A DNA stretch of 64,000 bases from Eggerthellaceae bacterium (GTDB taxonomy: Bacteria > Actinomycetota > Coriobacteriia > Coriobacteriales > Eggerthellaceae), in the NCBI GenBank assembly GCA_030524475.1, contig JAUNGO010000004.1, forward strand, positions 10,856 through 74,855, given 5' to 3'. Below, in pieces: positions 2,214 through 26,121 of the stretch (position 1 is its first letter; each line of letters opens with the position of its first letter). Under the pieces are notes generated by a model, which worked only from the letters and a program-made list of their open reading frames with translations, did no database searches and was not told the DNA's origin. A program made the translations under genes and the position numbers.

Positions 2214-4082
2214 ATGGTCGACAAGGAAATACAACAGTGCATGCAGTCGAAGCGCCTGTCGCGGTCGACGGTGGTTATCGTGTGCGTGCTGCTCGTCGCG
2301 TTTTTCGCCGTGACGGTGAACAACATGGCGACCATTTCGGCGCAAGTCGAGTCGATCAAAAGCGGCCCTTATCCTGTTTCGGTGGCTGCCGGGCGCGTGG
2401 AGACGCTGCTCGTCAAGCTGCGCACCGTCACCGAGAGCCCGGCATATCTCAGCTCGGAGGATGCCATCGATGACGTGGTGCAAGCATATATCGAGGTCAA
2501 CGAAGATATGACCGACAAATTAACCTTCATAAAGAATAATTATACGCTCGATCCCAACGACGCGCATATGCTGCAGAGCAGCTACGACGAACTTGTCGCG
2601 CGGCAAAACGAGTTCGTCGGCATGTGCGTTGACCCCGCGTACTCCGACGACGAGATTTTGCAATACGTCGACGAGCAGCTCTACCCCCTTATCGACAGCA
2701 TGCTGGCGCTTGACGTGGACATACTCGACAAGTCCACCGAGGCGGTCGACTCCATGTACACCACCGTCAACGCCGCCATCACGCAGACGATCATCGTTTC
2801 GTGCATTCTCATGGCGGGTGTTTCCCTGGCGCTGGTCATGTACACCTACATTCTTCACCGCAAGAGCAACCGCGAGGAAGCCCTGCGCGACAACCTGCGC
2901 GACGCGCTCACGCTTGCTCAAAGCGCGAGCGCCGCGAAGTCGGCGTTTCTCGCCAATATGTCGCACGACATTCGCACCCCCATGAACGCCATCGTGGGGC
3001 TCACCTCAATTGCGCAGGCCCATTTGGACGAGCCCGCACGCGTCAAAGACTGCCTTGAGCGCATCGGCGCGTCGTCGAAGCACCTGTTGGGGCTCATCAA
3101 CGACATACTCGACATGGGTCAAATCGAGAGCGGCAAGATTTCTTTGAGCGAGGAGCCGTTTTCCTTTAAGTGTCTTGTTGACGACTTCGCCGCCATGACG
3201 TCGCCGCAGGCGCGCGCGAAAAAGCTCGATTTCAGCGTCAACGTTGGTCACATCGAACACGATATGCTGGTCGGCGACGCCATGCGGATCAACCAAATCC
3301 TGCTGAATCTCACGAGCAACGCCATCAAATATACCCACGAAGGCGACCTGGTGAAAATATGCATCAGCGAGGAGACGAGCCTCCGCGAAGGGTTCGGCGT
3401 CTACCGTTTCGTCGTCAAGGACTCGGGTATCGGCATGAGCGAAGGCTTCCTCACCCACATTTACGACGCCTTCGAGCGCGAACGGAACGAAACGACCAAC
3501 TTCACCGAGGGTACGGGGCTTGGTATGTCGATCACGAAAAGCGTGGTCGACCTCATGGGCGGCACGATCACCGTCGAGAGCTCTCCCGGCAAAGGTTCGA
3601 CGTTTACCGTCGACCTTCCGCTCAAGTTTGCGCAAAACGACGAGTTGCACGTTTTAGACGAATGCGAAGGCGGCGCACGGGCGCTAACAGGGCGCGTTCT
3701 GCTTGTTGAAGACAACGAGTTGAACAGCGAGATTGCTTGCGAGCTGATCGAAGGGTTCGGCGTGGAGGTTGTCACGGCGCGCGACGGCGTCGAAGCGGTG
3801 GAGATGATGAAGGCCGCGCGGCGCAGCGAGAGGGCGGGCTACGACCTTGTGTTCATGGACTGGCAGATGCCGCGCATGAACGGCATCGAGGCAACGCGGG
3901 CAATTATTGCGTGGGAGGCGGAGCTCGGCCTTCCGCACACCCCCATCGTCGCCATGACGGCCAACGCGTTCAACGAGGATCGCGAACAGGCGCTCGCAGC
4001 CGGCATGGACGCCTTCATGGCGAAGCCCGTCGACCTCAAGGAGTTGGAGAAGAACCTGCGGAAATATCTACCGAGCACCTAG
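2214..4082 (+). CDS. Hybrid sensor histidine kinase with C-terminal receiver domain
   Basis: A 622-residue membrane sensor kinase. Transmembrane segments are at about 19-41 and 183-207, enclosing a short extracytoplasmic sensor region. The HisKA phospho-acceptor is H251 in NMSHDIRTPMN. The ATPase domain has the N-box (LNLTSNAIKYTHEG), G1 (DSGIGMSEG) and G2 (GTGLGMSI). A receiver domain follows with DN near its start, phospho-acceptor D549 in FMDWQMP and the conserved Lys in MAKPVD. Such proteins relay phosphate His to Asp, usually onward to an Hpt protein or separate regulator. No partner regulator is adjacent, so output is unknown. An internal ATG at 2238 is a possible later start. The stop codon lies inside a terminator stem. 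Confidence 0.9.
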   Translation: MVDKEIQQCMQSKRLSRSTVVIVCVLLVAFFAVTVNNMATISAQVESIKSGPYPVSVAAGRVETLLVKLRTVTESPAYLSSEDAIDDVVQAYIEVNEDMTDKLTFIKNNYTLDPNDAHMLQSSYDELVARQNEFVGMCVDPAYSDDEILQYVDEQLYPLIDSMLALDVDILDKSTEAVDSMYTTVNAAITQTIIVSCILMAGVSLALVMYTYILHRKSNREEALRDNLRDALTLAQSASAAKSAFLANMSHDIRTPMNAIVGLTSIAQAHLDEPARVKDCLERIGASSKHLLGLINDILDMGQIESGKISLSEEPFSFKCLVDDFAAMTSPQARAKKLDFSVNVGHIEHDMLVGDAMRINQILLNLTSNAIKYTHEGDLVKICISEETSLREGFGVYRFVVKDSGIGMSEGFLTHIYDAFERERNETTNFTEGTGLGMSITKSVVDLMGGTITVESSPGKGSTFTVDLPLKFAQNDELHVLDECEGGARALTGRVLLVEDNELNSEIACELIEGFGVEVVTARDGVEAVEMMKAARRSERAGYDLVFMDWQMPRMNGIEATRAIIAWEAELGLPHTPIVAMTANAFNEDREQALAAGMDAFMAKPVDLKELEKNLRKYLPST

Positions 4083-4201: not shown

Positions 4202-7200
4202 TTAGATGTTCTTCAGAATTTCCATCACGAAGTCGGCGTTGGCGAGCATCGCCTCTTCGCTTACGTTGTCGGCTATGTCGTCGGCCTCTCCGTAGAACGC
4301 GGGTTTCCCGCCTTCCATGCCGGCAAGGTGCATCGTCTGGTAGCCGTGGCGGGCGGCGCACACCGCCGCGCCGTCGTTCCACAGCATCGACGTCGTGCTG
4401 ACGCCCATACCGAGCGTCTGCGACGCCTTGCGCGTGTAACGCTTCATGCGTGACGACGACTTGACCGCGCGGAACGTGCCCTCGCGCTCGACGAGCGAGA
4501 GGTCGCCCGCGCCCAAGCCGTCGAGCTCGATAATGATCGAGCCCTTGAGATCGGCTTCGTGCTCGGCGATGAACGCCTCCATGCCGCCGTTGCCCGCAAG
4601 TTCCGCACCCAGCGCCACGAACCACACCTCGGTGTTGATGTCGGGATGGCGGAAACCGTAGATGCGCTGGACGTTTTCCGCATGGACTTCGTCGAGATCG
4701 GCCGCCGCGTGCTCGGCGGGCTCTGCTGCATACGAAGCGCCATCTGCCAACGGGTCGATCACCACGCGGCCCGTAGCCGACGCCGAGGTCGCAGGCACGT
4801 CGGCGGCGCTTTCGGCATACCCGCTCACCGATCCCGCAGCTTGGTCAACAGCCGCGTCGGTGTTGTAGCCGCCGCGGGCGTCGTAGGCGTCGTAGGCGCC
4901 GTAGTTGGCGTCGTTGTCGTTGTATTCGTCGTAGCCGTTTTCGTAGTCGTCGTAACCGTCAACGTAATCGCCGGCAGCGGACGCCTCGTCGGCACGCGCC
5001 GCTTTCCCCGCCCGGTTCTTTCGACCCGCTTTCGAGCCGCGCTTCGTCAACTTGCTCAAAGTCTCGCGCGAGAACGCGCCGCCGTTCCACGGGCGCGACC
5101 CACTCGGCGTCGGCGCGGCGGGTTGCTCGTCTTCCCACTCGTCGTATCCGTAGTCGTCGTAGTCGTCGTAACCGTCGTCTTCCGCATAGTCGTCGTACGA
5201 GCCGCCCTGCAACTGGCTTTGGTCGAGCATTTGGGTGTCGCCCGCGTCTTGGCGGAAGCTCTCCCAACCGCCGCGCGCCTGACCGACCGCCCGCGCCTCG
5301 AAGTTCTCGTCGACGTCGAGCCACTCTTGCGCGCTCGACTCGACCTGCTGGTCCTTCTTGCGGCCAAACTTGAACTTGCCGAAGAAACGCCCGGCGCGCG
5401 ACTTGGGCATATCCACGTACCCCGGCCCCGCAAAGGCACCGGTTTCCGTGTACTGCTCCTCGTAAGCCGAGTCGTCGGCGTCGTCGACGTACATATCATC
5501 GGGACTCACGTCGTCAAGCAGCTCGTCGCCCACAGGCGCGAACGCGCCCGTTGCCCCAACCGACGCGAACGCGCCGGCTTGATTCACGTTTTGCGCGCTC
5601 GCCTGCGCGGGTTCCTCCGCCTCGGAAGACCCTTCGCTTGCGTGTGCGTCTTCTTTCATGTTGAGAATGCCCGAAAGGGACGGCAGCGCCGCGCGCAGAG
5701 AAGCCTGTCGCGCCGCCTGTTGAGCAGCTGCGTTGTCCTCGCCTTCCGCCGCGCCCGCAGGCGACTGAGCCAGCGGAGCAGATTGGCGATGCTGCGTCGT
5801 GGTGTCGAGCGGGGCAAACGAGCCCGTAAAGCTCGGGAGCGTGATTGCGCGCTTCTTGCGTTGCTTGGGTTGGTGCGGCTGACCCGGCTGGGCTTGTGCG
5901 GCAGCGCTTTCCGCCGCTGACAACGTTTCACCTGAAACGTTCGGAAGATTGAGATTGACCGAGTCGAGCGCCGGAATGGCGTCGGCATCGAGCACGTTCA
6001 CGCGCCCGACAGCGGAGCGCCCCTCAAACGGCGAGGCAGGTGCGGAAGCCGGCGTCGGGGACGCGGAAGGGACAACCGAGACGGGAGAGATGGTGCCAGC
6101 AACGCCTGAGTCGGCGGCGGTAGCTGCGGCGCCACTCGCACCCGCGCCCGAAACGCGAGCGTTTCTGAGGTCGGCAGCGGCGCGGCGCATTTCGTCGGCG
6201 TCGACTGCCACGGGCTCGAACGCATGCGTCTTGTCGGGAGAAATTTCGGCGCCGCTCGTTTCGACGGGCAAAGCTTCTGCAAGCACGCCGGGCGCGCCGG
6301 ACGCGACGGCTGCAGCAAATTCCGAAGGTTCCGCTTGCGAACCTTCGGCGGCAACCATGTTTGCGACGTCCTCGACGTCAGGCATTTCGGTTGCCACAAT
6401 GTTTTCGCGCATACGCTGCAAGCGCTGGTCAACTTCGGAAGAAGCCGCGAAGGGCGTGGCGCGAGAGGGCTCGTCGACCGAAGCCGACGCGGCAGAAGGC
6501 GAAATCGACGCCGCTCCACGCGCCGCAGCGGCGTCGAGGGCGTCGGCGTACCGCGAGCGCTGGCTCGGGCTCGCAGGCGCGGCGGGAGATTTCTTAGCCT
6601 TTGCCTGCGCCGTCTTGAACCAATCGGGCACGCCGGCGTTAGCCGGAGCCGCCGAGGGGTTCGCGTCGGCAACGTTCGAGCCGCCAGCCGTCTCCGCTGC
6701 CGCGGAGGCGGCGTTTGCTGCTGCGGCGGCGGCGCCCGCCGCTGCCGTTGCGCCTGCAACACCCGCAGCGACCGCGCCGTCGGCGGCGGAAGACGCGCCC
6801 CATCCAGCCGCATCGCCCGCAGCACCAAGGGCGGATTCAACGCCCGCGGTGCCCTGGTCGGCAGCTTGCCCGGATACTGCTGCGAAGTCGGCGGCCGCGC
6901 CGTGCTCCGAAGCTGCGACGCCAGCGCCCGCGGCTTCGCCGTACGGCGCGCGCGGTGCGAAAGCCGCGTGCGTCTCTTCGCGACGCGCGCGTTTTTCTTC
7001 TTCCGTCGCTTCTATAGGCAGCGAACCGTTCACTTGCACGAGGTTGTGCGAAATGTCGATGTTGATCGTGTTGCTTACCGGCTTGCCGGACAGCGCCGCC
7101 ACGGCAGCCTTCGCCGCCAGCAGCCGTGCCTCGGGGGACTCCTCCGCGAACTCAGGCTCCTTGATCGGAGACGCGCCGTAGGAGTCGTCGTACTCGAATT

Positions 7201-8011
7201 CCGCGCCTTCCGGAACAAGACCCATTTCGCGCGCCGCCTCTTCGCCGTGCATACGCGCCTCGATTTCCTCCTCCGACACGCGCCCGCGCCCGATGCGCGT
7301 CGCCACCTCGGCGAGGACCGACACGCCCGCCGCATTGCAGTTCGCGCCCTCGTTGTAGGGAGCGAAACGGCGAACGAGGAAACCGACAAGCGGAAGCGCC
7401 GCCAAAATCATCGAAACGACCGACAGGATGTTCAGGAAAATAAGCAGCCCGCCTTCCGCATTCGAAACGAAGCGGAGAAGCAGCAAAAGGGGAATGAGAA
7501 CCAAGCCGGCGAATTCCGCCCACTTCACGTAAGGGTAGGTTGCGAGCACCGCGCTGCCGAGGTCTTTGCGCACCTTGCCGCTGTCGTAGCGCGCCACAAG
7601 AACGATCTTGCGGCGGCGGGGCGATGCGGTTGCCGACGACGCGGCGGGCTCGTACTTCGTGACGACGTTTTGGCTGACGCCTTGGCTCAAGAGGCGCGCG
7701 ACGACCGGCTGCCAGAACGTCTCCAGCCCGAACAGAACGACCGCGATCAACGAAACGATCAGGGCGGGGATTACTGCTATCGGGGCAAACAGCGCCACGA
7801 GTGCCATGACGACAGCCACGCCGCTGCAAATGGCGCGGGGCATTTCGTAGTTCGGGTTGCAGTTGAAGTCTTCGACCTCGGCGGCGAGCCCAGCCTCGTG
7901 CTGGAACACGTCGCTTATATACAAAGCCGCCTGCTGCTCTTCCTCAGTTCCCGCAGGACGTGGTCCTATGGTCTGCGACAAATGCGCAACATGCTCTTGA
8001 ATCTCGGACAT
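4202..8011 (-). CDS. M28-peptidase-like membrane protein, metal ligands lost, with about 870-residue low-complexity insert
   Basis: A 1269-residue protein. Residues 1-240 and 1113-1269 together resemble a zinc aminopeptidase (M28) domain, but it is split. Hydrophobic segments lie at about 62-97, 166-182 and 187-212. Between about 245 and 1112 lies an insert rich in Ala, Ser, Pro, Asp and Tyr with DDYDDY-type acidic runs, probably disordered. Comparison with known M28 ligands: HxD becomes R141-Y-D143; the Asp of GANDNASG becomes C225; the EE pair becomes E1137-L1138; the Asp of the INLDxxG-like strand is kept (D1164); the last His becomes G1241. I infer a pseudopeptidase. A decayed parS lies in the insert coding region. 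It is transcribed after the dinG and 620-residue protein genes; function unknown. Confidence 0.75.
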   Translation of the reverse strand: MSEIQEHVAHLSQTIGPRPAGTEEEQQAALYISDVFQHEAGLAAEVEDFNCNPNYEMPRAICSGVAVVMALVALFAPIAVIPALIVSLIAVVLFGLETFWQPVVARLLSQGVSQNVVTKYEPAASSATASPRRRKIVLVARYDSGKVRKDLGSAVLATYPYVKWAEFAGLVLIPLLLLLRFVSNAEGGLLIFLNILSVVSMILAALPLVGFLVRRFAPYNEGANCNAAGVSVLAEVATRIGRGRVSEEEIEARMHGEEAAREMGLVPEGAEFEYDDSYGASPIKEPEFAEESPEARLLAAKAAVAALSGKPVSNTINIDISHNLVQVNGSLPIEATEEEKRARREETHAAFAPRAPYGEAAGAGVAASEHGAAADFAAVSGQAADQGTAGVESALGAAGDAAGWGASSAADGAVAAGVAGATAAAGAAAAAANAASAAAETAGGSNVADANPSAAPANAGVPDWFKTAQAKAKKSPAAPASPSQRSRYADALDAAAARGAASISPSAASASVDEPSRATPFAASSEVDQRLQRMRENIVATEMPDVEDVANMVAAEGSQAEPSEFAAAVASGAPGVLAEALPVETSGAEISPDKTHAFEPVAVDADEMRRAAADLRNARVSGAGASGAAATAADSGVAGTISPVSVVPSASPTPASAPASPFEGRSAVGRVNVLDADAIPALDSVNLNLPNVSGETLSAAESAAAQAQPGQPHQPKQRKKRAITLPSFTGSFAPLDTTTQHRQSAPLAQSPAGAAEGEDNAAAQQAARQASLRAALPSLSGILNMKEDAHASEGSSEAEEPAQASAQNVNQAGAFASVGATGAFAPVGDELLDDVSPDDMYVDDADDSAYEEQYTETGAFAGPGYVDMPKSRAGRFFGKFKFGRKKDQQVESSAQEWLDVDENFEARAVGQARGGWESFRQDAGDTQMLDQSQLQGGSYDDYAEDDGYDDYDDYGYDEWEDEQPAAPTPSGSRPWNGGAFSRETLSKLTKRGSKAGRKNRAGKAARADEASAAGDYVDGYDDYENGYDEYNDNDANYGAYDAYDARGGYNTDAAVDQAAGSVSGYAESAADVPATSASATGRVVIDPLADGASYAAEPAEHAAADLDEVHAENVQRIYGFRHPDINTEVWFVALGAELAGNGGMEAFIAEHEADLKGSIIIELDGLGAGDLSLVEREGTFRAVKSSSRMKRYTRKASQTLGMGVSTTSMLWNDGAAVCAARHGYQTMHLAGMEGGKPAFYGEADDIADNVSEEAMLANADFVMEILKNI
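5924..5939. other. Degenerate parS-like site inside a gene
   Basis: Palindrome-like 16-mer CGTTTCACCTGAAACG: both end bases changed and the central CACGTG reads CACCTG. In the host gene it encodes V692-S-G-E-T, the same frame as the exact intragenic sites. Confidence 0.45.
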
Positions 8012-8078: not shown

Positions 8079-9941
8079 CTAACGAATGCCCAAATAATCA
8101 CGCAGAAATGCATCCGCTTCCGAGGCTCGCGCGCGCTCGGTGTCGTACGTTGCGACGTCTGAATTTATTGCTTGCTCGAAATATTCTTCAACAAGAGCTA
8201 TCGGGTCGCTTTTTTGGCTTTTAATGAGAGTCGCCGCCTCGGACTCGAGGTTGTTGTACGCCTCGTTCGCCTCGCCGGCGCGCTCCTTGTTGCGCTCGAG
8301 GTACGCCTGATTCGACGCCAGCGCCTGTTCTTGGGCCTCAATGCGCAGGTCAATGTACTCGAGAAACGCGCTGAGGTCTATTTCGGGGCAAAGGTCTTGC
8401 GCGGCGACCAGCGACTCGCGCGCCTGGGCAAACGTCGTGATCGCCTCGGTCGATATCTCCGATGAGGCCAGCGTGTTCTCGGGGCTTGTTTCAGCGATAA
8501 GGGTGGCGGCGTCGCGCGTGAGGGAGTCGCCCTCGAGCAGCGCGTTCCACCCCTCTTGCGCTTTTTCGTAGAGCTGGAGAAGGTTCGTTGTGGTAGATAG
8601 AATCGCGCCGCCCGCGTCGATCATGTTAAGCCGCGCGTTGATGGCGATGAGCGCGCGGTTCGATGTTTCGATGTCGCTCGTGTCCTTGATCGACGACTGG
8701 AGAGTCTCGATCGACGCCTTTATTTCTTTGAGTTGTTTCGACGCTTCGTTGAGTTGCTCGGTGGTGGGGGTGTTGTTGGCGGTAGCAGAAGCGGAACGCG
8801 CGGAGTTGGTGGCGGCGTTGTCGTTGTTGGCGGTGTCGCGAGTAGTGGCGGCGTTGCCGTTGGTGTTGGTGGCGGCACTGCCGGCGCTGGCAGCATTTTC
8901 GCCGACAGTAGAATCGCTGGCAGTAGCGGTATCAGCAGCGTTGCCCGCAGCGCTACCATCAGCGGCGCTGTTCCCGGCAGCGCTGCCATCGGCGGCGCTG
9001 GCACCGCTACCCTCGTCAACGCCGAGCACGCCCGCGTTGCTGCCGGCAGCGGCGTCACGATCCGCGCCGCCGTCATCTGCGCCGTTGCCCGCAGCGCCCA
9101 CAGCCGAGCCATCGTCACCACCGCTGCCCGACCCTTCGTCTGCGTCGGCATCACCAGCGGCAATTTGTTCGAGCGTGCTTTCCTCAATGTATTGAATCCG
9201 CTCATCGAGGGCGAGCACAACCTCGTCGGGTTCATCGATGTTTTGTATCAGACCCGCCAGCCCTGATCGCATTTCCTGCGTATGCTGGTAGCCGCCGTAA
9301 ACAAAGCTCACGCCAACGGCGAGCAGTATCGCCGCGCCAAGCACGCCAGCAGCCGCCGCGAGGCGCTTTCCGCGCATACGCACCGCTTTGCGCCGCGCCA
9401 CCTCTTCAACAGGGGTTTCCCACGAAGGCGCAGAAGACCGCGAACTCGTTGCCGAGGACTGGCCAGCGGCGGCAAAAGAGCTCCCAATTCCTCCAACTTC
9501 CCGCGTCGCGCCGCCAGCATGAGAAACTCCTGCGGATAACGACGAAGAACCCGCCGACAGCGCACTTTCGGGCGTTGATTCTTTCGTCGTTGCCTCAGCC
9601 GACGCCGCCGACAGCGCGGTCGAGCTGTCGGCAGCAATCCCAGGAACGGTCTGCGGCGTCGAGGAAGGCGTCGCCGCCGTTGAGTCGGTCGAAACGAACT
9701 CTCCCGTGGAAAGAGGCAGCCCCTTCTCCTTCGTTGGAGTGGGCGCGGGCTTTTTCGCCTTCAAGGTAAAGAGCGATATCACGCCGAGAAGAGGAAAACG
9801 GCGCGAGGAACGGTCGCGGCGGTCGCCGTCGGCGGCGTTTTTTGCCGCGTCGAGCACGCTGAACGATATCTCGTTCGACGTGCCCTCGGTGTGGCGCTTG
9901 ATGTGCGCCGCGCGGGTTATTTTCTCTTCTCGCTTCTTCAA
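8079..9941 (-). CDS. Single-pass membrane protein with helical extracytoplasmic domain, function unknown
   Basis: A 620-residue protein that I do not recognise. It starts with TTG at 9941; no earlier in-frame start with a better ribosome site was found. Residues 1-190 are basic then Ser/Thr/Ala/Pro-rich. One transmembrane helix lies at about 193-216, followed by an outer region: a short helical part, an Ala/Asp/Asn/Gly-rich linker at about 260-390, and a Gln/Glu/Ala-rich helical part from about 395 to the end (EQLNEASKQLKEIKASIE) that looks coiled-coil. The topology suggests a cytoplasmic tail and an outside coiled coil. It lies between dinG and the M28-like gene on the same strand, so they may be co-transcribed. 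A role in the envelope is only inference. Confidence 0.65.
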   Translation of the reverse strand: MKKREEKITRAAHIKRHTEGTSNEISFSVLDAAKNAADGDRRDRSSRRFPLLGVISLFTLKAKKPAPTPTKEKGLPLSTGEFVSTDSTAATPSSTPQTVPGIAADSSTALSAASAEATTKESTPESALSAGSSSLSAGVSHAGGATREVGGIGSSFAAAGQSSATSSRSSAPSWETPVEEVARRKAVRMRGKRLAAAAGVLGAAILLAVGVSFVYGGYQHTQEMRSGLAGLIQNIDEPDEVVLALDERIQYIEESTLEQIAAGDADADEGSGSGGDDGSAVGAAGNGADDGGADRDAAAGSNAGVLGVDEGSGASAADGSAAGNSAADGSAAGNAADTATASDSTVGENAASAGSAATNTNGNAATTRDTANNDNAATNSARSASATANNTPTTEQLNEASKQLKEIKASIETLQSSIKDTSDIETSNRALIAINARLNMIDAGGAILSTTTNLLQLYEKAQEGWNALLEGDSLTRDAATLIAETSPENTLASSEISTEAITTFAQARESLVAAQDLCPEIDLSAFLEYIDLRIEAQEQALASNQAYLERNKERAGEANEAYNNLESEAATLIKSQKSDPIALVEEYFEQAINSDVATYDTERARASEADAFLRDYLGIR

Positions 9942-10020: not shown

Positions 10021-13000
10021 CTACCCTTCGCGGTGGGCGTTTTGAGCGCCGTGCTCGGGGTCGCACGCAAGGTCGCGCGCAGAACCACACGCAGAGCCGC
10101 TCTCAAAATCGCGCCCGGCGTTGCGCTCGATGTCGCGCACGATGTCGGCCACCGTGCAAACGCGGATGTTCTTGCTCGGCAACGAGTTGAGGAACGCCTT
10201 GCCGTAGCCTTTCGTCACCAAGCGCTTGTCCGCGAGAATGAGCACGCCCTCGTCGGTCGACTTTCTGATGAGGCGCCCCGCGGCCTGTTTAATTTCGAGA
10301 ACCGCCGCGGGAAGCACGTAGCGCCGCCACGCTTGGTCGTCGCGCGCCGAACGCTCGCAGGAAAGCGGGTCGGTGGGCTTTGCAAACGGCAGCTTGGGAA
10401 TGATCACGCCCTTGAGCGTGGCGCCCGGAGCGTCGAAACCCTCCCAGAAGCTTTTCAAGGCGAAAAGCGAGAGATGCTCGTCGGCGAGGAAGTCGTCGCG
10501 CAACCCCTTCACCGAAACGCCCCATTTTTGACACACAAGCCGCAGATTGTCGGTCTTTAGCTCGGGCTGAACCACCTCGAAGCACTTCTCCATCTCCTTG
10601 CGATTGGTGAACAGCGTAAGCATTGAGCCCTGTTGAGCGCGATGCGCGGCAACGAGAAGGTCCTGGAGCGCCGAAAGATAGCGCGGCTCGCTGGGCTCGG
10701 GCATGTCTTTTGCCACGTAGACGGTCATTTGGCGGTCGAAGTCGTAGCTCGACGCAAGCGAAAGCGAGCCCGCGCGCGACGATTCGTCGCTATTGAGCCC
10801 CATCGCATCTTGGAACGACTGAAACGAGTTGTTCGCCGTAAGCGTAGCCGATGCGAACACAACCGAGCGCGTGTTGGCGTACAGCGTGTCGCACAGCTCC
10901 GCGCCGACGTTGTAAAGCAGCGCTTCAAGCTTGTCGCCGCCGCGGTCGGCTTTGTGGCACAAATGGGCGGCGTACACGTAGGCGTCCGACCCCGACGACA
11001 AAATCACGTCGCAAGCCCTGATGATGTCCTTGAGCTCCATCGCAACCGACGCAATCTCGCGCTGAACCACCGCCGCGCCTTCCACGTCCTCAAGATAGCC
11101 GACAAGCTCCTGACTTGCGGTAACGAGTTTCTCCGCGCGCTCCGACATCGTGCAGCCGAAACCGGAAAGCGCCTGAAACGCCGACCCCGCGCGAATCTCG
11201 TCGTTGATCCACAAGTCGACGTACTCGTATCCCTTGCTTCGCTTTGAGGGGTCGTAGAACAGAAGGTCGCGCACGTGGGAAGCGAATTCCGCCTCTGCCT
11301 GCGCAAATTCCCTGCCCGCGGCTTTCGCCTTGCTCGTAAGCGCGAAGAACAACGTGATGGCGTTCTCGTCGTTGAGAGTCACCGTGCGCTCGGCTCGCAC
11401 AAACACGTTCCGGGACGTCTCTTCCGCGGAAACGCGCTGCGCAAGGCTGCCCATGTCGTCAAGCGAGAGCTCGAGGGAAAACGCGCGGCGAGCCTCGTTT
11501 TCCGCCCCGTGTGCCTCGTCGACGACCCAGAAACGCACAGGAGGAAGAAGCCCGCCGTCAGCCGCAAGGTCGCAGAACAGCAGGCTATGGTTCGTTACCA
11601 CGACGTCAGCCGACTCGGCGCGCCGACGGGCGCCGTGGACGAAGCAAGACGTGCCGTAGAAGGGGCACTTCCTTCTCATGCAGTCGTGGCTTGTCGTGGT
11701 AATCGACCGGCGCGGCAACACGCGATAGTCGATCTTAAGGCTGTCCATGTCGTCGTATTCCGTTTGCTCGACAAACGAAAGCAGAGCCGCGAGGGCAGGC
11801 GCCTGGGAATACTCGGTGTTCGCCACCGTGCGCTTGCCGGGACCTTCCGTCGCGATGCGCTCAATCTTGCGAAGGCACGGGTAGTGGGAGAAGCCTTTGA
11901 GGGCGGCGAAGGTGAAGGCGGGCGCGACGTCACTCCCGACGGCATCGTTTCGGGCGGCGCGGGCGACATCTGCGGCGTTTGCGGCGCGAGCATCGTTGCT
12001 GGCGTTGCGGGCGCCGTGGGTACCAGTCGAAGCTCCCAAACTCGATGTTTCACGTGAAACATTCGCGCGCTGCTCGCGCAACGCCTTCTCCAATCCGGGA
12101 AGCTCCTTGTAAACAAGCTGGTCGAGCAGCGCGTTCGTCTTGGTTGCCACACCCACCGCAATGTTGTTCTCTCGCGCCGTCAACACCGCCGGAACAATGT
12201 ATGCCATCGATTTTCCGACGCCCGTTCCCGCCTCAACCATGAGATTCTCAGACGTCGCGAATGCGCGGCGCACCGCCTGCGCCATTTCAAGCTGTTCGGA
12301 ACGCGGCTCGTAATCGTCGTAGAGAGCGCCCACCACTCCTGCTGCGGAAAAAGCCTCCTCCACGGCTTCCTTCGAAGGGAACGACATCGCCGGCACCCGT
12401 CCATCAGGCATCATGTGCATGGGATCGCGCTTTGCCCGCTGCTCAGACTTCCCCACCCGCGCGCGGCGCAGCGACCGCAAGGAGAAAGGCAAGGTTGACG
12501 AAGCACCTTCCGCAGAAGGCGAACCCTCGATAATCCCCTCCTGCTCCTCGCGCGACGCAAAGTAAGAAAAAACCTTTACCGTCGGCCATTCCGCGGGAGT
12601 TGCCATGCCGGCAATCTCGCGCACGAGAGGCGCCGGCATACTTTCAACCGCCGCAAGAAGGATGCGGAACAGTGCGCAGGTTGCCGCCACGTCGTCGTCG
12701 GCGCGGTGAGTCGAAAGAGGCGCCCCGAAAGCTTTTACCAGGTCAATCAAGCGATGTGACTTCATGCGGGGAAGAGCGATGCGTGACAGGTCGAGCGAGT
12801 CAAGCCACGTGTTCTCAAGAAGGGGATATCCCGCAGGGTGCTTCGTCGTGAAATTCCGATCAAATTCCGCATTGTGGGCAACCACCTTCGCGTCGCCAAC
12901 GAATTCAACGAGCCGCGCCAGCGCTTCTGCCGGGAGCGGAGCGTCTTTCACGTCCTCGTCGTGGATGTTCGTCAAATGGGCAACGTCGTCCGGAATAGAT

Positions 13001-13254
13001 TTTCCTGGGTTAACAAAAGTAATGAACCAATCAACAATCTCGCCTTGCTCCATGCGCGCGGCGGCAATCTGCGTCAATTCGTCGTGATTCAGGGAAAAAC
13101 CTGTCGTTTCCGTGTCGACGATAACGATATTTCGATCAAATTCCCCGAAATCAGACTCTTTCGCCCGTTGAGGCAGCGCCATATAGCGCTCAACCACCTC
13201 TTGAGGCGTGCCCTCGAGAATGTATTTCATCAAGGATTCGTTTGCTTGAAGCAT
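10021..13254 (-). CDS. dinG: DnaQ-type exonuclease fused to DinG-family helicase
   Basis: A 1077-residue fusion. The N-terminal DEDDh 3'-5' exonuclease has DTETTGF (about residue 47), AHNAEFDRNF, and HRADDD. The helicase has Walker A in EAGTGVGKS near 344, and DEAH near 579 (VVDEAHGAENE). Four cysteines that could bind an iron-sulfur cluster are seen at YPC, HDC, KC and SC. The C-terminal motifs FWEGFDAPG and GRLIRKSTDEG complete an XPD-like superfamily 2 helicase. Such enzymes unwind 5'-3' at damaged or R-loop-bearing DNA. ATG 13254 follows GGGGA on the minus strand. An exact parS inside the gene encodes V399-S-R-E-T in a Ser/Ala/Asn-rich linker. It is divergent from the gene at 13337. Confidence 0.9.
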   Translation of the reverse strand: MLQANESLMKYILEGTPQEVVERYMALPQRAKESDFGEFDRNIVIVDTETTGFSLNHDELTQIAAARMEQGEIVDWFITFVNPGKSIPDDVAHLTNIHDEDVKDAPLPAEALARLVEFVGDAKVVAHNAEFDRNFTTKHPAGYPLLENTWLDSLDLSRIALPRMKSHRLIDLVKAFGAPLSTHRADDDVAATCALFRILLAAVESMPAPLVREIAGMATPAEWPTVKVFSYFASREEQEGIIEGSPSAEGASSTLPFSLRSLRRARVGKSEQRAKRDPMHMMPDGRVPAMSFPSKEAVEEAFSAAGVVGALYDDYEPRSEQLEMAQAVRRAFATSENLMVEAGTGVGKSMAYIVPAVLTARENNIAVGVATKTNALLDQLVYKELPGLEKALREQRANVSRETSSLGASTGTHGARNASNDARAANAADVARAARNDAVGSDVAPAFTFAALKGFSHYPCLRKIERIATEGPGKRTVANTEYSQAPALAALLSFVEQTEYDDMDSLKIDYRVLPRRSITTTSHDCMRRKCPFYGTSCFVHGARRRAESADVVVTNHSLLFCDLAADGGLLPPVRFWVVDEAHGAENEARRAFSLELSLDDMGSLAQRVSAEETSRNVFVRAERTVTLNDENAITLFFALTSKAKAAGREFAQAEAEFASHVRDLLFYDPSKRSKGYEYVDLWINDEIRAGSAFQALSGFGCTMSERAEKLVTASQELVGYLEDVEGAAVVQREIASVAMELKDIIRACDVILSSGSDAYVYAAHLCHKADRGGDKLEALLYNVGAELCDTLYANTRSVVFASATLTANNSFQSFQDAMGLNSDESSRAGSLSLASSYDFDRQMTVYVAKDMPEPSEPRYLSALQDLLVAAHRAQQGSMLTLFTNRKEMEKCFEVVQPELKTDNLRLVCQKWGVSVKGLRDDFLADEHLSLFALKSFWEGFDAPGATLKGVIIPKLPFAKPTDPLSCERSARDDQAWRRYVLPAAVLEIKQAAGRLIRKSTDEGVLILADKRLVTKGYGKAFLNSLPSKNIRVCTVADIVRDIERNAGRDFESGSACGSARDLACDPEHGAQNAHREG
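12046..12061. other. parS site (exact), inside dinG
   Basis: Exact 16-mer within the dinG coding sequence, read as V-S-R-E-T in a low-complexity linker. Confidence 0.85.
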
Positions 13255-16484: not shown

Positions 16485-17495
16485 TTAAGAGACGTAAGCG
16501 AGGAGTTCCTCAAAAAGTCTCTCGAGATCAGCTTCATCGTTAAACTCAATCTCGATTTTGTTCTTACCTTTCGAAGATTTCACCCTCACATTGGTCTTAA
16601 GGACATCCTTCAAGGCTTTCGCGACGGATTTATACATAGGCGGTATTGGCTCTCGCTGACGAGAGCCGTCACTTGGCTTGCCCGACAAAAGATGAGCAAG
16701 GTTTTCCGCCTCCCTCACGCTTAACTTATCTTCAGTCAATTTATTTGCGAGGGTTTCTCGCCCTTCCTTGGTAGGAACAGACAAAATAGCCCGCGCATGA
16801 CCTGCCGTAATCTTGTCTTCAAAGAGAAGTTGCTGAGCTTCTTCAGGAAGATCAAGGAGACGAAGAGCGTTAGCAACAGTCGAGCGACCTTTCGACATTG
16901 CCTGGGCAACGTCAGATTGAGTCATATTTCGGCGCTCCATCATGCGCTTATAGCCATAAGCTTCCTCAATCGGGTTAAGATCGGAACGTTGAATATTCTC
17001 GATAAGGGCCAGTTCAAGCGCACGATCTTCATCAACATCCTTAATACGTACAGGAACTGTCTTCAAGCCAAGTTTCTTACACGCCTGCCAACGGCGCTCG
17101 CCGGCAATAATTTGATACGAGTTTTCGCCTATGGTTCTCACTAAGATAGGTTGCAGAAGCCCGTCTTTCTCAATGGAAGCCGCCAGCTCGTCAATTTCGT
17201 CTTGTTTGAAATTGGTGCGCGGTTGATTAGGGTTTGGAACAACTGATTCAAGAGGAACCTCGTCTATTTTGCGGTGAGAGCGGTAAGGAAGAGGAGACGT
17301 TTCAGCGCTTTCAACTTCGTTTTTCTCGGTTTCAAATGTTTCACGTGAAACATTGTAAGTTGTTTCGCCGTTTTCATCTACAACAACGCGTTCCCGCGAC
17401 GGAGAGGGAATAGCAGGTGCAACTGGTTCGTACGAACCACCTAAAAGAGAGTTTAATCCACGCCCTAATCCACTTCTATTGTTGTTTTTAGCCAC
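16485..17495 (-). CDS. parB: Chromosome-partitioning CTPase-type DNA-binding protein ParB
   Basis: A 336-residue ParB/Spo0J. The N-terminal segment (GLGRGLNSLLGG) is the usual ParA-interacting part. A linker of about 20-70 is followed by the ParB/Srx domain with GERRWQACKKLG, the CTP-binding motif, and ENIQRSDLNPIEEA. The HTH region (MTQSDVAQAMSKGRSTVANALRLL) reads parS, and the C-terminal part dimerises. ParB loads on parS and spreads as a CTP-dependent clamp. It starts with GTG at 17495 and overlaps parA by 8 bp. Its own gene contains an exact parS that encodes V49-S-R-E-T in the linker; B. subtilis spo0J also carries an internal parS. The many sites in this window are its presumed targets. 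Confidence 0.96.
   Translation of the reverse strand: MAKNNNRSGLGRGLNSLLGGSYEPVAPAIPSPSRERVVVDENGETTYNVSRETFETEKNEVESAETSPLPYRSHRKIDEVPLESVVPNPNQPRTNFKQDEIDELAASIEKDGLLQPILVRTIGENSYQIIAGERRWQACKKLGLKTVPVRIKDVDEDRALELALIENIQRSDLNPIEEAYGYKRMMERRNMTQSDVAQAMSKGRSTVANALRLLDLPEEAQQLLFEDKITAGHARAILSVPTKEGRETLANKLTEDKLSVREAENLAHLLSGKPSDGSRQREPIPPMYKSVAKALKDVLKTNVRVKSSKGKNKIEIEFNDEADLERLFEELLAYVS
17337..17352. other. parS site (exact), inside parB
   Basis: Exact 16-mer in the parB linker coding region. Confidence 0.88.
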
Positions 17496-18456
17496 GGCTG
17501 ATCACTTCCTTTGCAAGTTCAATATAGGAGATAGACCCTTTTCCTTTAGGATCGTATTGGGTGATAGGTTGCCCAAAACTTGGAGCTTCTGACAGCTTAA
17601 CAGTGCGAGGAATAAGTGTATTGAATACGATTTTTCCGAAATAGCCTCGCACTTCGTCGACCACCTGCTTGGAAAGCAAGGTTCTATTGTCATACATCGT
17701 GAGAAGAACCCCATAGATATCAAGAGTGGGATTAAGCCTTGATTTGACACGTTTCATTGATTCAAGAAGTTTTGTCACGCCCTCGAGAGCATAAAACTCG
17801 CATTGAATCGGAATAAGGAGCTTATCAGCTGCAACTAGTGCATTTACTGTTAAAAGTCCGAGGGATGGAGGGCAATCAATGAAAATGTAGTCATAACGTC
17901 CTCGCATCGACCCGACGGCATCCTTGAGTCTATTCTCACGCGCCATTTCGGATACAAGCTCAACCTCAGCGCCCGCAAGGTTAATGGTCGCGGGAGCAAC
18001 GTCGAGACCAGGGCAAACATCGGGGATAATAACCCTCTCTATAGGCTCATCAGCCAGAAGAACATCATAAATGCACTGTTGAACGGCAGATTTTTCTATA
18101 CCGAGTCCACTCGAGGAATTACCTTGTGGGTCGAGATCAACGAGAAGAACCTGCTTTCCCATCTCACCGAGTGCAGCCGCAAGATTAATAGCGGTGGTTG
18201 ATTTACCCACACCGCCTTTTTGATTGATGATAGCTATGATCTTTGTTTGCCCTACAACGTGTTTTACAGGTTCTTTTTCTTCGTAAGACCTTAAAGACTT
18301 GGATTCAATCTTGTCTTCAAGAGGTTGAACCACATCGCGAACGATAACAACAGGTTCATCAAGATCATCCGATGTATTTTCCTGAACCTCGCTCACCTGT
18401 TTATTGACAGTCTTTGTCTCATTTTTTTCACGTTTAAGACTATCTAGAAATCCCAC
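17488..18456 (-). CDS. parA: Chromosome-partitioning ATPase ParA (Soj)
   Basis: A 322-residue deviant Walker ATPase that works with ParB to position origins. A GTG start at 18456 is preceded by AAAGGAGGAAACC. An N-terminal extension of about 70 residues, Glu/Lys-rich, comes before the ATPase core IIAIINQKGGVGKSTTAINLA, with the deviant Walker A KGGVGKST at about 80-88. Later motifs include LLVDLDPQGN and FIDCPPSLGLLTVNAL. The gene overlaps parB by 8 bp, so they form an operon. Two exact parS sites lie upstream (18511, 18560), one abutting the likely -35 box, which suggests feedback control by ParB. Confidence 0.96.
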   Translation of the reverse strand: MGFLDSLKREKNETKTVNKQVSEVQENTSDDLDEPVVIVRDVVQPLEDKIESKSLRSYEEKEPVKHVVGQTKIIAIINQKGGVGKSTTAINLAAALGEMGKQVLLVDLDPQGNSSSGLGIEKSAVQQCIYDVLLADEPIERVIIPDVCPGLDVAPATINLAGAEVELVSEMARENRLKDAVGSMRGRYDYIFIDCPPSLGLLTVNALVAADKLLIPIQCEFYALEGVTKLLESMKRVKSRLNPTLDIYGVLLTMYDNRTLLSKQVVDEVRGYFGKIVFNTLIPRTVKLSEAPSFGQPITQYDPKGKGSISYIELAKEVISRG

Positions 18457-18482
18457 GGTTTCCTCCTTTTCGACTTAAAACG

Positions 18483-18510
18483 AGTATATCAAACGAAATT
18501 CACGTTGGAA
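18483..18510 (-). promoter_or_regulatory. Likely parAB promoter next to parS
   Basis: On the minus strand an extended -10 TGATATACT (TATACT at 18488-18483) is 16 bp from a weak -35 TTCCAA (18510-18505). The parS at 18511 begins directly beside that -35. Confidence 0.55.
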
Positions 18511-18526
18511 TGTTTCACGTGAAACA
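18511..18526. other. parS site (exact)
   Basis: Exact 16-mer in a 26-bp palindrome abutting the parA -35 region. Confidence 0.85.
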
Positions 18527-18559
18527 TTCCAGTGGAGGTAACAGAAAAGCAGCTCAAAA

Positions 18560-18575
18560 TGTTTCACGTGAAACA
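18560..18575. other. parS site (exact)
   Basis: Exact 16-mer 1 bp after the DUF559 stop at 18577 (minus strand). Confidence 0.85.
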
Positions 18576-18576
18576 T

Positions 18577-18975
18577 TCACACCTTACTTTTTAAAAGAGA
18601 GAAGCCATTTCCCATAAGGTCGTTACGACGGGCTTTAACTTCCTTATCTATTACTTCACATACTCCCTCAAAACTCTCGTCAATGTCTCTATTAGAAAAC
18701 CGGAGTTGCTTTATTTCCCTCATTTCAAGAAAAGAAGTGCGTGTGGCGTCATAGGCCAGTGAACGTTTTTCGTAATGCTGGCCGCCATCAAGTTCAACGC
18801 TAAGGCGTGCCTTGCGACAGTAGAAATCAACTATATAGTTCCCAATAACTTTTTGAGCTTTGAAAGTAACTTCGTATTCAGCAAGAAAGCGATACCAGAG
18901 TTTCTTTTCGTGAGGAGTCATGTTCCTTCTAAGGTAAAGAGCCCTCTCCGCTAAAACTTTTCTCCTTGTCATCAT
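18577..18975 (-). CDS. DUF559 family endonuclease-like protein
   Basis: A 132-residue protein with the DUF559 fold, related to very-short-patch-repair-type endonucleases. Recognisable features are the N-terminal LRRNMTPHEKKLWYRFL, then NYIVDFYCRKARLSVELDGGQHY, and a C-terminal half with the R-x-x-x-L-E-M-R-E-I region. D and E in VDFY and ELDGGQH are plausible active-site residues. Start ATG 18975 follows AAAGGG. It lies upstream of parAB on the same strand with a 120 bp gap. These genes often occur singly in bacteria and their substrate is not known. Confidence 0.8.
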   Translation of the reverse strand: MMTRRKVLAERALYLRRNMTPHEKKLWYRFLAEYEVTFKAQKVIGNYIVDFYCRKARLSVELDGGQHYEKRSLAYDATRTSFLEMREIKQLRFSNRDIDESFEGVCEVIDKEVKARRNDLMGNGFSLLKSKV

Positions 18976-19134
18976 TTGTTTCCCTTTCTTCTAGAAACTC
19001 GAGACAAGAAGATCGTAACAGCGCCGTTTAACCAAGAGATGCGAGAAATCTCACACCACTCTCACTCAATTCGCTTTGATATCACACAAGTTTGATACCA
19101 AGTTCAAACAAAAAATCAGAAGCTCATATGCCAA

Positions 19135-19150
19135 TGTTTCACGTGAAACA
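19135..19150. other. parS site (exact)
   Basis: Exact 16-mer in the rsmG-DUF559 spacer. Confidence 0.85.
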
Positions 19151-19215
19151 TCTCTGGATATGACTCGTATTTAACCGAAATTCAACCAAAAACTAACTAA
19201 AACCTAACTAGAAAA

Positions 19216-19231
19216 TGTTTCACGTGAAACA
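19216..19231. other. parS site (exact)
   Basis: Exact 16-mer in a 30-bp perfect palindrome (19209-19238) that includes the end of rsmG. Confidence 0.85.
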
Positions 19232-19235
19232 TTTT

Positions 19236-19895
19236 CTATACCGTGAGCGGTTTTTTTTGAGCCATACTTATTCGACGCGGAAGCTTTATTTTTGCTTTAG
19301 CCACTTTCTCAAAAGAAACGATCTCACGATACGTCTCGCCATCGCTTAAAGTTAAACTACGGCGAGAAACCAATTTCATTCCAAGAATCTTCTCCAAAGA
19401 TTCGGCATGATTTAATTCGTCCTCCGAAAGACGAGCTTTATAACAAACTAAACGACCTCCCTTAACGAGCAAAGGAGACGACAACTCGAGTAGGGAAGGG
19501 AGTTGAGACAAGGCGCGGGCGGTCAAGACGGCGAAAGCGGATCTTTTCTCAAGGGCGAGGTCTTCTATTCGACCGGGATACGTCTTAATTTGACCCGATA
19601 GCGATAGTTTCGATAGAGCTTCCTCTATAACAGCTGCTTTCTTTTTTACCGAGTCAACGAGAACAGCTTCTCGTCCGGTTTTAATGGATACAGGAACGCC
19701 GGGAAAACCACCACCTGTTCCTAAATCGCCGTACAACCCTTGCGGAGCAGCGTTGATTTCAGGAAGTGCTGACAAGGAATCTTGCACATGAAGAATGCGC
19801 GCCTGGTCAAGGGATCCAATTCTCGTGAGATTGACAGTCTTGTTTGCTTCAAGAATCAAATCAAGGTATAAGGCAATCATTTCGTCATCGGACAT
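19236..19895 (-). CDS. rsmG: 16S rRNA (guanine527-N7)-methyltransferase RsmG
   Basis: A 219-residue class I SAM methyltransferase (GidB) that methylates G527 of 16S rRNA. Motifs include NKTVNLTRI, HVQDSLSALPEI and the SAM loop YGDLGTGGGFPGVPVSI at about residues 54-70, then TARALSQLPSLLEL. ATG 19895 follows AAGGAGCAACA. It is a separate unit, since jag upstream ends in a terminator at 20222-20259 and four parS sites lie in between. Gene neighbours parA and parB match the common order rsmG-parA-parB. Confidence 0.95.
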   Translation of the reverse strand: MSDDEMIALYLDLILEANKTVNLTRIGSLDQARILHVQDSLSALPEINAAPQGLYGDLGTGGGFPGVPVSIKTGREAVLVDSVKKKAAVIEEALSKLSLSGQIKTYPGRIEDLALEKRSAFAVLTARALSQLPSLLELSSPLLVKGGRLVCYKARLSEDELNHAESLEKILGMKLVSRRSLTLSDGETYREIVSFEKVAKAKIKLPRRISMAQKKPLTV

Positions 19896-19910
19896 TGTTG
19901 CTCCTTAAAA

Positions 19911-19926
19911 TGTTTCACGTGAAACA
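19911..19926. other. parS site (exact)
   Basis: Exact 16-mer in a 24-bp palindrome directly upstream of the rsmG ribosome site. Confidence 0.85.
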
Positions 19927-19948
19927 TTTTGCCATCGGTTACACAGAA

Positions 19949-19964
19949 TGTTTCACGTGAAACA
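19949..19964. other. parS site (exact)
   Basis: Exact 16-mer in a 30-bp perfect palindrome (19942-19971). Confidence 0.85.
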
Positions 19965-20012
19965 TTCTGTGCAATAGTAACCGAAGAAACAACCTATCCA
20001 CAACAACGAAAA

Positions 20013-20028
20013 TGTTTCACGTGAAACA
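20013..20028. other. parS site (exact)
   Basis: Exact 16-mer in a 30-bp perfect palindrome (20006-20035). Confidence 0.85.
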
Positions 20029-20086
20029 TTTTCGTGCTGGTTTTCGATTTCACATCCCTTCACAAGCTGTTTATTTAAACCCTCAA

Positions 20087-20102
20087 TGTTTCACGTGAAA
20101 CA
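20087..20102. other. parS site (exact) in 42-bp palindrome
   Basis: Exact 16-mer at the centre of a perfect 42-bp palindrome (20074-20115), the longest in the window. Confidence 0.88.
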
Positions 20103-20221
20103 TTGAGGGTTTAAAAAGAAGGAAGCGGCAGCAGAACAAAAATATGCTACTTATTACAAAAAGCAGCAGCAACATTGCAGCAAAAGATTCAAGAAGGGAG
20201 TTTCACAATACATGACTGCAA

Positions 20222-20259
20222 CAAATAAAGAGGGGGTGAGTCGAAGACCCAACCCCCTC
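20222..20259 (-). terminator. Intrinsic terminator after jag
   Basis: On the minus strand, GAGGGGGT pairs with ACCCCCTC around a TTCG-bearing loop, followed by TTTATTTGTT. It ends the rpmH-to-jag unit. Confidence 0.7.
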
Positions 20260-20293
20260 GAGTGAATTTGTTTTTGACGTGTGCTACGAAGCT

Positions 20294-20917
20294 TTACCGA
20301 GGAACGACTACAACATGACGCGTGCTGCCTTCCCCTTCCGAAACGGTATCGACGCGATCGTCGTCGCGAAGCGTGATATGAACGATACGGCGCTCATACG
20401 GAGTCATGGGGCGTAAATTGACGTTACGGTGCTGTGCTGCTGCACGGTTAGCGGACGAATGAGCGATAGATTCGAGTTTTTGCCGCTGACGACTTTTGTA
20501 TCCCTCAACGTCGATAACCACCGGATAACGAAACCCTATGGTTCGCACTGTGATGGCTGACACAAGGAATTGCAATGCATCAAGGGTTTTCCCATGGCGA
20601 CCAATGAGAACAGCAAGGTCGTCGCCTGTGATATCGAGGATAAGTTCGCCGTCGTCACCTTCATATTCGTCAATAGTGACGTCGCCCACATTGAAGTACT
20701 TAAGAATATCCTGCAAGGCCGATATAGCCGTATCAGCAATATTGTCGAGCATTTCCTCCGTTACTTCTCCGTCACCAGAAGCATCGGTCGACGATTCCGT
20801 TTCAATCGAATCCATCTTATCGGACACCACAGCAGTTTGATCCGCGTCGTCTGCATCGGCACCTTCGCAAACTTCACCTTCGAGGGTTTCCTCAAATTCC
20901 TTCGTTTCCTCCGACAT
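20294..20917 (-). CDS. jag: KH/R3H RNA-binding protein Jag (KhpB, SpoIIIJ-associated)
   Basis: A 207-residue RNA-binding protein. Residues 1-55 are acidic. The Jag/KH domain has VLIGRHGKTLDALQFLV, with the GxxG loop as GRHG. The R3H domain contains SANRAAAQHRNVNLRPMTPYERRIVH. Homologues bind mRNA and sRNA and affect cell-envelope growth. It lies after yidC, the standard order rpmH-rnpA-yidD-yidC-jag. ATG 20917 follows AAGGAGGAAGTT. A terminator follows its stop. Confidence 0.95.
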   Translation of the reverse strand: MSEETKEFEETLEGEVCEGADADDADQTAVVSDKMDSIETESSTDASGDGEVTEEMLDNIADTAISALQDILKYFNVGDVTIDEYEGDDGELILDITGDDLAVLIGRHGKTLDALQFLVSAITVRTIGFRYPVVIDVEGYKSRQRQKLESIAHSSANRAAAQHRNVNLRPMTPYERRIVHITLRDDDRVDTVSEGEGSTRHVVVVPR

Positions 20918-20952
20918 AACTTCCTCCTTTGTTCCAAGAGAGTGGGGCGAAA

Positions 20953-20968
20953 TTTTTCACGTGAAACA
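20953..20968. other. parS-like site with one mismatch
   Basis: TTTTTCACGTGAAACA, one base from exact, in the yidC-jag gap; flanking bases extend the palindrome. Confidence 0.65.
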
Positions 20969-20992
20969 TTTCGCTTTAAAACACAAAGGGAG

Positions 20993-21008
20993 TGTTTCAC
21001 GTGAAACA
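20993..21008. other. parS site (exact)
   Basis: Exact 16-mer in a 28-bp perfect palindrome (20987-21014) between yidC and jag. Confidence 0.85.
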
Positions 21009-21031
21009 CTCCCTCGGTTACTAAAATGGAT

Positions 21032-21808
21032 CTAGCGCTTCTTCCTCGGGCGCTTTTTCTTGGTTTTCCGCGTAACGGTCACTTCGACAGGCTTAACCTC
21101 CACAGGTTCTTCGGCAGCTTTCTGCTCGTCTTTGCGGCGACACAGGAAAAGCGAGAGCTGATTTTGACCAATACCGATCAAAGAAGACATACCCCAGAAC
21201 AACAACACGCCGGCAGGGGAGCTCCATGAAATCCAAAGCATGAACACCGACATGACTACCGCCATGATAATCATTTGGTTCTTCTGCTGCTTGTTCTCGC
21301 TCTTGAGCTGTTGCAGGACCATCGGCAAAAACGTTGCGCCTGCGAAGATTACCATAAGGATTAAATAGGGAACAAATGTTCCAAATCCCTGAAAAAATGC
21401 CTGTTCAGGCGTGGTAACAAGGTTAGGCACCAAGTTGTAGAAGGAATAGTCGTGGACTTCTTCGCGCGCACCCATCTCACGCAACACCTGGAACAAGGCA
21501 ATGAAGATGGGCATTTGCAGCAACATGGGAATGCAGCCGGCGAGCGGGTTGAACTTCGCCTCGGCGTAGAGTTTCTGCATTTCCTGGCTTTGACGAACCT
21601 GGTCGTCGGCGAAGCGCTCCTGGATGCTCGCGATCTTCGGTTGAATCTTCTGCATCTGGTAGTTCGACTTCGCCTGCTTGTGCATGATCGGCGAAACGAT
21701 GATGCGGAAGATGATGGTGACTAAGAGGATAGCGAGTCCCCAGTCGCCGCAGAAGCTGTAGAAGGCTTGGATGACGTCAAAGATCCAATCCTTGAATACT
21801 TCCCACAT
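21032..21808 (-). CDS. yidC: Membrane protein insertase YidC (Oxa1 family)
   Basis: A 258-residue insertase with five hydrophobic segments and no large periplasmic domain, as in Gram-positives. The conserved LLVTIIFRIIVSPIMHKQ region contains the Arg that lies in the hydrophilic groove. QKIQPKIASIQERF begins the cytoplasmic hairpin, and FNPLAGCIPMLLQMPIFIALFQVLRE is the family core. The C-terminal tail is very basic (ending KKKRPRKKR) and may bind ribosomes. It inserts membrane proteins alone or with SecYEG. It lies between yidD and jag. Confidence 0.95.
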   Translation of the reverse strand: MWEVFKDWIFDVIQAFYSFCGDWGLAILLVTIIFRIIVSPIMHKQAKSNYQMQKIQPKIASIQERFADDQVRQSQEMQKLYAEAKFNPLAGCIPMLLQMPIFIALFQVLREMGAREEVHDYSFYNLVPNLVTTPEQAFFQGFGTFVPYLILMVIFAGATFLPMVLQQLKSENKQQKNQMIIMAVVMSVFMLWISWSSPAGVLLFWGMSSLIGIGQNQLSLFLCRRKDEQKAAEEPVEVKPVEVTVTRKTKKKRPRKKR

Positions 21809-21843
21809 TCCATTTTCCCTTCTAATTCAAACCCGTCGAGCCC

Positions 21844-22086
21844 TTAAGGCACGGGGTCGTACCCATAAGGCCCGCCGGGATGACACTTCGCAAGACGCTT
21901 CGCCGTGAGGACAAACCCCTTCTTGAAGCCGTAGCGCCTAAACGCAATCAACCCGTATTCTGAGCACGTCGGAACAAAACGGCAGCACGAAGGAAGCAGC
22001 GGAGAAATGGCGGCGCGATAAAACATGATTAACCCGATGGCCATCAAAGCCGGGGCACGTTTAATCGCGGACAGCAGCCTTTTCAT
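21844..22086 (-). CDS. yidD: Membrane protein insertion efficiency factor YidD
   Basis: An 80-residue protein of normal YidD length. Family landmarks are the hydrophobic start [19 protein letters not shown], then [19 protein letters not shown] with the conserved cysteines, and the C-terminal [13 protein letters not shown]. It aids YidC-dependent insertion. The gene overlaps rnpA by 26 bp, and ATG 22086 follows GGGAAGAAGCTG. Confidence 0.93.
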
Positions 22087-22453: not shown

Positions 22454-22465
22454 CAAACGCTCCGG

Positions 22466-24645: not shown

Positions 24646-24671
24646 GGCCGAGTCTTTCTTGGAGGTTGTAG

Positions 24672-24695
24672 GCACAAGGGATATCTCCCTTGTGC
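24672..24695. promoter_or_regulatory. Inverted repeat in the dnaA leader
   Basis: Perfect 10-bp arms (24672-24681 and 24686-24695, GCACAAGGGA and its complement) with loop TATC, 27 bp upstream of the dnaA start. Could be an operator or mRNA hairpin. Confidence 0.5.
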
Positions 24696-26088: not shown

Positions 26089-26121
26089 AAATGTGAATTT
26101 CGAAAGTCTGTCAACCTGCGG

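Follow-up and report, generated by a model that had tools for sequence, protein, structure and literature searches.

Nicastrin and the transferrin receptor have an M28-like fold without metal-dependent catalysis and use it for binding, both being eukaryotic proteins that cross the membrane once and carry the domain outside the cytosol, with nothing comparable to the insert described below. Glutaminyl cyclases also have the M28 fold, with one zinc, and many pseudoenzymes regulate active relatives by pairing. The M28 enzymes BSAP of Bacillus subtilis (PDB 6hc6) and 1amp of Vibrio proteolyticus share their fold, element order, GANxN loop, HxD-type strand and C-terminal half with a protein encoded in the window, a stretch of 64,000 nucleotides from an Eggerthellaceae bacterium (assembly GCA_030524475.1, contig JAUNGO010000004.1, positions 10,856 to 74,855). 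The window protein differs from these two enzymes in that four of the five metal ligands are replaced, two transmembrane (TM) hairpins and a disordered insert of about 870 residues lie in loops of the domain, and the domain is predicted to be cytosolic whereas BSAP and 1amp are secreted.

A split M28 domain with two membrane hairpins

The gene (4202..8011) occupies the minus strand, as do all features given below unless stated otherwise, and reads from an ATG at 8011 down to 4202 as an ORF of 1269 aa with no internal stops. The genus is Adlercreutzia, to which the nearest named relatives belong. Together with its PF04389 match and its orthologs this describes an M28-fold pseudopeptidase with four TM segments and a long disordered insert. 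The first half of the M28 domain (residues 1-240; 7292..8011) ends in a GANxNASG loop, with the second half (residues 1113-1269; 4205..4675) following the insert (residues about 245-1112; 4676..7279). Pfam detected the second half only, PF04389 matching residues 1124-1264 with 24.4 bits against a cut-off of 21.3, while the first half was recognised by a profile matching BSAP (PDB 6hc6) with E 2.6e-14. The C-terminal half alone gave no M28 match against the PDB, profiles being required, and PF04389 matched 22 of 25 C-terminal and 17 of 25 N-terminal halves at E <= 0.1.

The structure model is that of a 994-aa order-level ortholog with similar ligand losses (L059), from which the window protein itself differs in sequence. 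In this model the first half mostly has pLDDT 60-93 per 10-residue block and the second half mostly 86-94, with two blocks lower, while the insert is mostly below 50. M28 aminopeptidases were the best PDB matches (Foldseek, E 1.6e-5), in local alignments, none of which crosses the insert, and the joining of the halves into one domain follows from outgroup homologues in which they are contiguous. The confident prediction of both halves and this contiguity bear out the sequence-only reading of the gene as a single M28 domain divided by some 870 residues. The anatomy as described here, of a split M28-fold domain, hairpins and a motif-bearing insert, is very nearly certain.

The same reading placed membrane segments on the flanks of the first half; the segments are present, but hydropathy and the model put four of them, as two hairpins, within it. 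Hairpin 1 (TM1-TM2, about residues 58-98; 7718..7840) corresponds to helices 57-75 and 77-98 of the ortholog model and hairpin 2 (TM3-TM4, about residues 163-212; 7376..7525) to helices 153-182 and 190-218. Lys and Arg are richer in the domain-side loops than in the short loops on the opposite side, and there is no apparent signal peptide; the M28 domain is accordingly predicted to lie on the cytosolic face of the membrane.

Other origins for such a reading frame were considered. Fusion of two unrelated genes is excluded by the contiguous halves of the outgroup homologues, a sequencing or gene-fusion artefact by recurrence of the architecture across the order, and a chance ORF by class-wide conservation with purifying selection in both halves (dN/dS about 0.02-0.21, rough for pairs with large dS). 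Two orthologs, one from Gordonibacter pamelaeae (L065:7938-11500) and one from another order-level genome (L155:5693-8255), have the frame broken into a pair of overlapping ORFs, by either sequencing error or frameshift.

Loss of the catalytic set

An active M28 enzyme carries H, D, E, D and H as metal ligands together with a catalytic Glu, written here in sequence order as HDEEDH. The ligand columns of the window protein read R141, C225, L1138, D1164 and G1241, with D1164 and the Glu at the general-base position, E1137, kept. R141 (7589..7591) replaces the first His ligand in the HxD motif, of which D143 is invariant, and C225 (7337..7339) replaces the bridging Asp beside the invariant N226. 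L1138 (4598..4600) stands in place of the Glu ligand next to the retained general base, and G1241 (4289..4291) in place of the second His. The alignment columns therefore read exactly as the four replacements had first been called. The Arg, correct for the window protein, is nevertheless not a family trait: in 49 aligned order-level sequences the first His column holds H 23, N 14, R 11 and Q 1, and two orthologs of the same genus (Adlercreutzia) carry His at position 141, which makes R141 lineage-specific.

In the same 49 sequences the bridging Asp column holds C 20, D 9, S 9, N 8, A 2 and Y 1, the Glu ligand is retained in seven, all of which are without Glu at the base position, and the last His is retained in six and gone in 43. 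Position 1164 is D in 19 and E in 27, hence acidic in 46/49, E1137 is present in 30/49, and D143 and N226 are invariant. The full HDEEDH set was found in none of 50 order-level sequences (the 49 aligned plus L157), and the original claim of a fold kept with its catalytic set lost extends to the whole order. Catalytic residues are thus lost from a gene under selection in both halves, as in a pseudopeptidase.

Some catalysis might survive: with E1137, D1164 and D143 the protein could act, much as glutaminyl cyclases do, as a hydrolase or cyclase that uses a single metal or follows an altered mechanism. The frequency of these residues, the invariance of N226 and one order-level sequence in which the five metal ligands are all present and Ser occupies the base position (L046, HDSEDH) favour such an activity, which is nonetheless distinctly unlikely: the Glu ligand is gone in all but the seven sequences that have no base Glu, the second His is gone in most, the first His column varies between H, N, R and Q, and no conserved alternative site is visible. 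The zinc ligands of glutaminyl cyclases (Asp, Glu and His) are not reproduced in the window protein, in which L1138 occupies the Glu position and G1241 that of the last His. Cleft residues other than D143, N226 and the glycines show no strong conservation. Residual binding of metal or another ligand is possible given E1137, D143 and D1164 or E1164 in most members of the window's family.

Conserved motifs in the insert

The insert, predicted to be mostly disordered, was initially described as rich in Ala, Ser, Asp and Tyr. It is indeed long and rich in Ala (23%), Ser (9%) and Asp (8%), along with Gly (9%) and Glu (8%), but Tyr makes up 2.9% overall and is clustered, and ordered conserved motifs are present. 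About nine motifs follow one another in fixed order. M1 (GLVPEGAExxY; GLVPEGAEFEY at 7190..7225) also occurs in catalytically intact class-basal homologues, M2 (PDWFKxAQxK; PDWFKTAQAK at 6599..6628) has P and W invariant across 30 orthologs and M3 (RSRYAD, 6542..6559) has RSR invariant across 30 orthologs. They are followed by M4 (LPSLSG, second copy at 5669..5686), M5 (TGAFAPV, 5531..5551), M6 (DDADD, 5471..5485) and M7 (MPKSR, 5396..5410, then the basic stretch FFGKFKFGRKK). M8 (WLxVDExFDAR..G..xGxWxxF; WLDVDENFEARAVGQARGGWESF at 5255..5323) is the class signature, and M9 (WxGG; WNGG(AF) at 5078..5089) is present in 58 of 70 inserts against about 3 in shuffles. Each motif was found in 22-58 of 70 inserts against 0-3 in shuffled copies, the patterns having been written after the sequences were seen, such that the shuffles are evidence against an effect of composition only.

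A profile of M8 (WLxVDExFDAR..G..xGSWDNF) picked out a single strong site per genome in about 100 of the 119 class genomes scanned, the majority of which were outside the set used to build it, and this site lay in the long frame of the pseudopeptidase gene. M8 is absent from some members. Its being common to other proteins of the genome is ruled out in these 119 genomes, where it occurs essentially once per genome with few extra matches at E > 0.02. Neutral low complexity is likewise ruled out for the motifs, which lie far above the shuffles, the insert as a whole having dN/dS 0.09-0.20 (again rough for pairs with large dS).

Distribution and history

Of 199 Coriobacteriia genomes, 189 have the gene by the first-half profile, mostly as one copy each, and the profile matched in 79 of 296 genomes of a phylum sample that includes members of the class; an ortholog was found in 55 of 60 relatives. 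Outside the class the halves are contiguous, with at most 11 residues between them, and 7 of 17 sequences are complete (HDEEDH). In the other orders of the class (class-basal) the gap is 167-257 residues and 11 of 20 sequences are complete, the remainder comprising five with the metal ligands but Lys or Gln at the base and four that are degenerate. Four class-basal sequences (L123, L131, L134, L135) read HDKEDH, with five intact metal ligands and Lys at the general base. The window's order is a single clade (SH-aLRT 99) with gaps of 242-1074 residues, and every one of its sequences is degenerate. Homologues with complete ligands and known activity had been named as grounds for abandoning the sequence-only reading; complete ligands were found, in sister orders and outside the class, while the known activity was not.

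The tree alone requires two changes for presence of the insert. A single origin is not rejected (p-AU 0.107), the argument for it being that M1, M8 and M9 are shared. As catalytically intact class-basal members have the insert and forms outside the class are without it, the insert most likely predates the loss of catalysis. Living genomes thereby preserve a succession of three states, a contiguous enzyme, an enzyme carrying the insert and a pseudoenzyme whose insert is longer, which suggests that a non-catalytic docking role preceded catalytic loss.

Seven outgroup genomes (L141, L142, L143, L146, L151, L152, L167-L174) contain intact (HDEEDH) and degenerate (NDGxD) insert-free 4-TM M28 copies together, apparently an enzyme-pseudoenzyme pair. 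Degeneration has thus occurred outside the class too, and the presence of such pairs in the wider family favours the idea that the pseudopeptidase regulates an active peptidase relative by pairing. For the protein of the window's class this is quite improbable, the gene being nearly always single copy in Coriobacteriia; the window's genome has one other PF04389 match, weak and below cut-off, and related genomes have a few, mostly partial.

Gene neighbourhood and proposed role

The gene order Ddl, a 226-aa gene, a DinG-type helicase, a single-pass protein and M28 holds across the family and, in part, across the order. In the window the DnaQ-exonuclease/DinG-type helicase (10021..13254; Pfam, synteny) lies upstream on the same strand, followed by the single-pass protein (8079..9941; synteny, model), which has a cytosolic N-terminal motif, HIKRHTEGTSNEISFSVLD, conserved among its orthologs, and a C-terminal part that the model predicts, with high confidence, to be entirely helical. 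The C-terminal part of the window's copy contains a long Ala/Gly/Asp-rich stretch absent from most orthologs. Within the order, the single-pass gene almost always adjoins the M28 gene wherever it can be detected, and it is usually about 4 kb off in the class-basal, catalytically intact members; the pairing may therefore be younger. Directly downstream on the opposite strand is a gene for a hybrid histidine kinase with a receiver domain (2214-4082), and a related gene occurs on the same side of M28 in two other loci (L060, L072).

The window covers the origin region, with ParB at 16485, ParA at 17488, GidB at 19236, Jag at 20294, YidC at 21032, DnaA at 23062, a RecF/SMC-type protein at 27937 and GyrB at 29520 (window 16485-31469). 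In the outgroup, genes for RodA, PbpA and two alpha/beta hydrolases precede the intact copies (identified by Pfam, all four genes in L151 and PbpA also in L141, L143 and L152). Gene order of this kind is an indirect indication of a link with an envelope or origin process. As a counterpoint to the envelope, DinG suggests DNA repair, and the neighbourhood of the replication origin often holds housekeeping genes.

The proposal that the protein is a scaffold or a sensor is plausible. As a membrane sensor, the former active-site cleft would bind a peptide or wall precursor and signal through the insert or the single-pass neighbour. Ddl in the same gene cluster is in keeping with this. So is the neighbour: its order-level ortholog was modelled as a helical bundle, and the top hits of that model, though weak, take in the chemoreceptor sensor domains of McpS, TorS and PilJ (E 0.05-0.4). 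None of these matches reaches E <= 0.001, the single-pass neighbour itself has no Pfam, NCBIfam or significant PDB match, and the cleft beyond D143, N226 and the glycines is not strongly conserved, such that a sensor is unlikely.

The reading preferred here is that the protein is a pseudopeptidase scaffold, anchored in the membrane and facing the cytoplasm, on which partners assemble via the motifs of its insert, and we consider this probable. An ancestral membrane aminopeptidase, still intact, would have acquired at the base of the Coriobacteriia a disordered insert with docking motifs, after which, in the window's order, the active site would have decayed while the insert grew longer and added motifs. 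The dead M28 domain would be retained as a binding platform, tethered to the cytosolic membrane face by the two TM hairpins in its loops, with the short motifs gathering candidate partners in the cytoplasm. Through the membrane and the single-pass neighbour the scaffold could couple these partners to events at the envelope or the chromosome origin, for instance wall synthesis or division.

A more specific form, still doubtful, is that the class has made a membrane organiser of its own from a dead M28 domain, with the motif-studded loop gathering wall-synthesis, division or origin-segregation proteins. Were it true, the organiser would do the job of unrelated scaffolds elsewhere in bacteria, with WLxVDExFDAR..GSWDNF as its main docking site. 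The gene is a single-copy component of almost every sampled genome of this gut class and lies near the replication origin. Its defined motifs are usable as baits, for example in Eggerthella lenta, for which one report states that genetic tools now exist (PMC9734109).

Comparison with known systems

That no described family has this design was claimed at the outset, and none was found in the literature or in the profile and structure libraries searched; a 2024 review devoted to inactive homologues of metallopeptidases makes no mention of M28. The window protein departs from nicastrin and the transferrin receptor in having four hydrophobic helices in two hairpins and, judging by positive residues on the domain side, a domain predicted to be cytosolic. 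Corynebacterial Glp/GlpR shows that in Actinobacteria a repurposed enzyme fold can be a division scaffold with a membrane partner (PMC10522489), although its molybdotransferase fold is unrelated to the window protein in sequence or fold, and it serves as a precedent only. By profile, insert-free 4-TM M28 proteins of other actinobacterial classes (L141, L143, L151, L152) rank among the nearest relatives beyond the class. These have the same N-terminal half with hairpins and the same C-terminal half, but differ from the window protein in their complete HDEEDH set, their lack of the insert, their length of 385-436 aa and their position downstream of RodA-PbpA.
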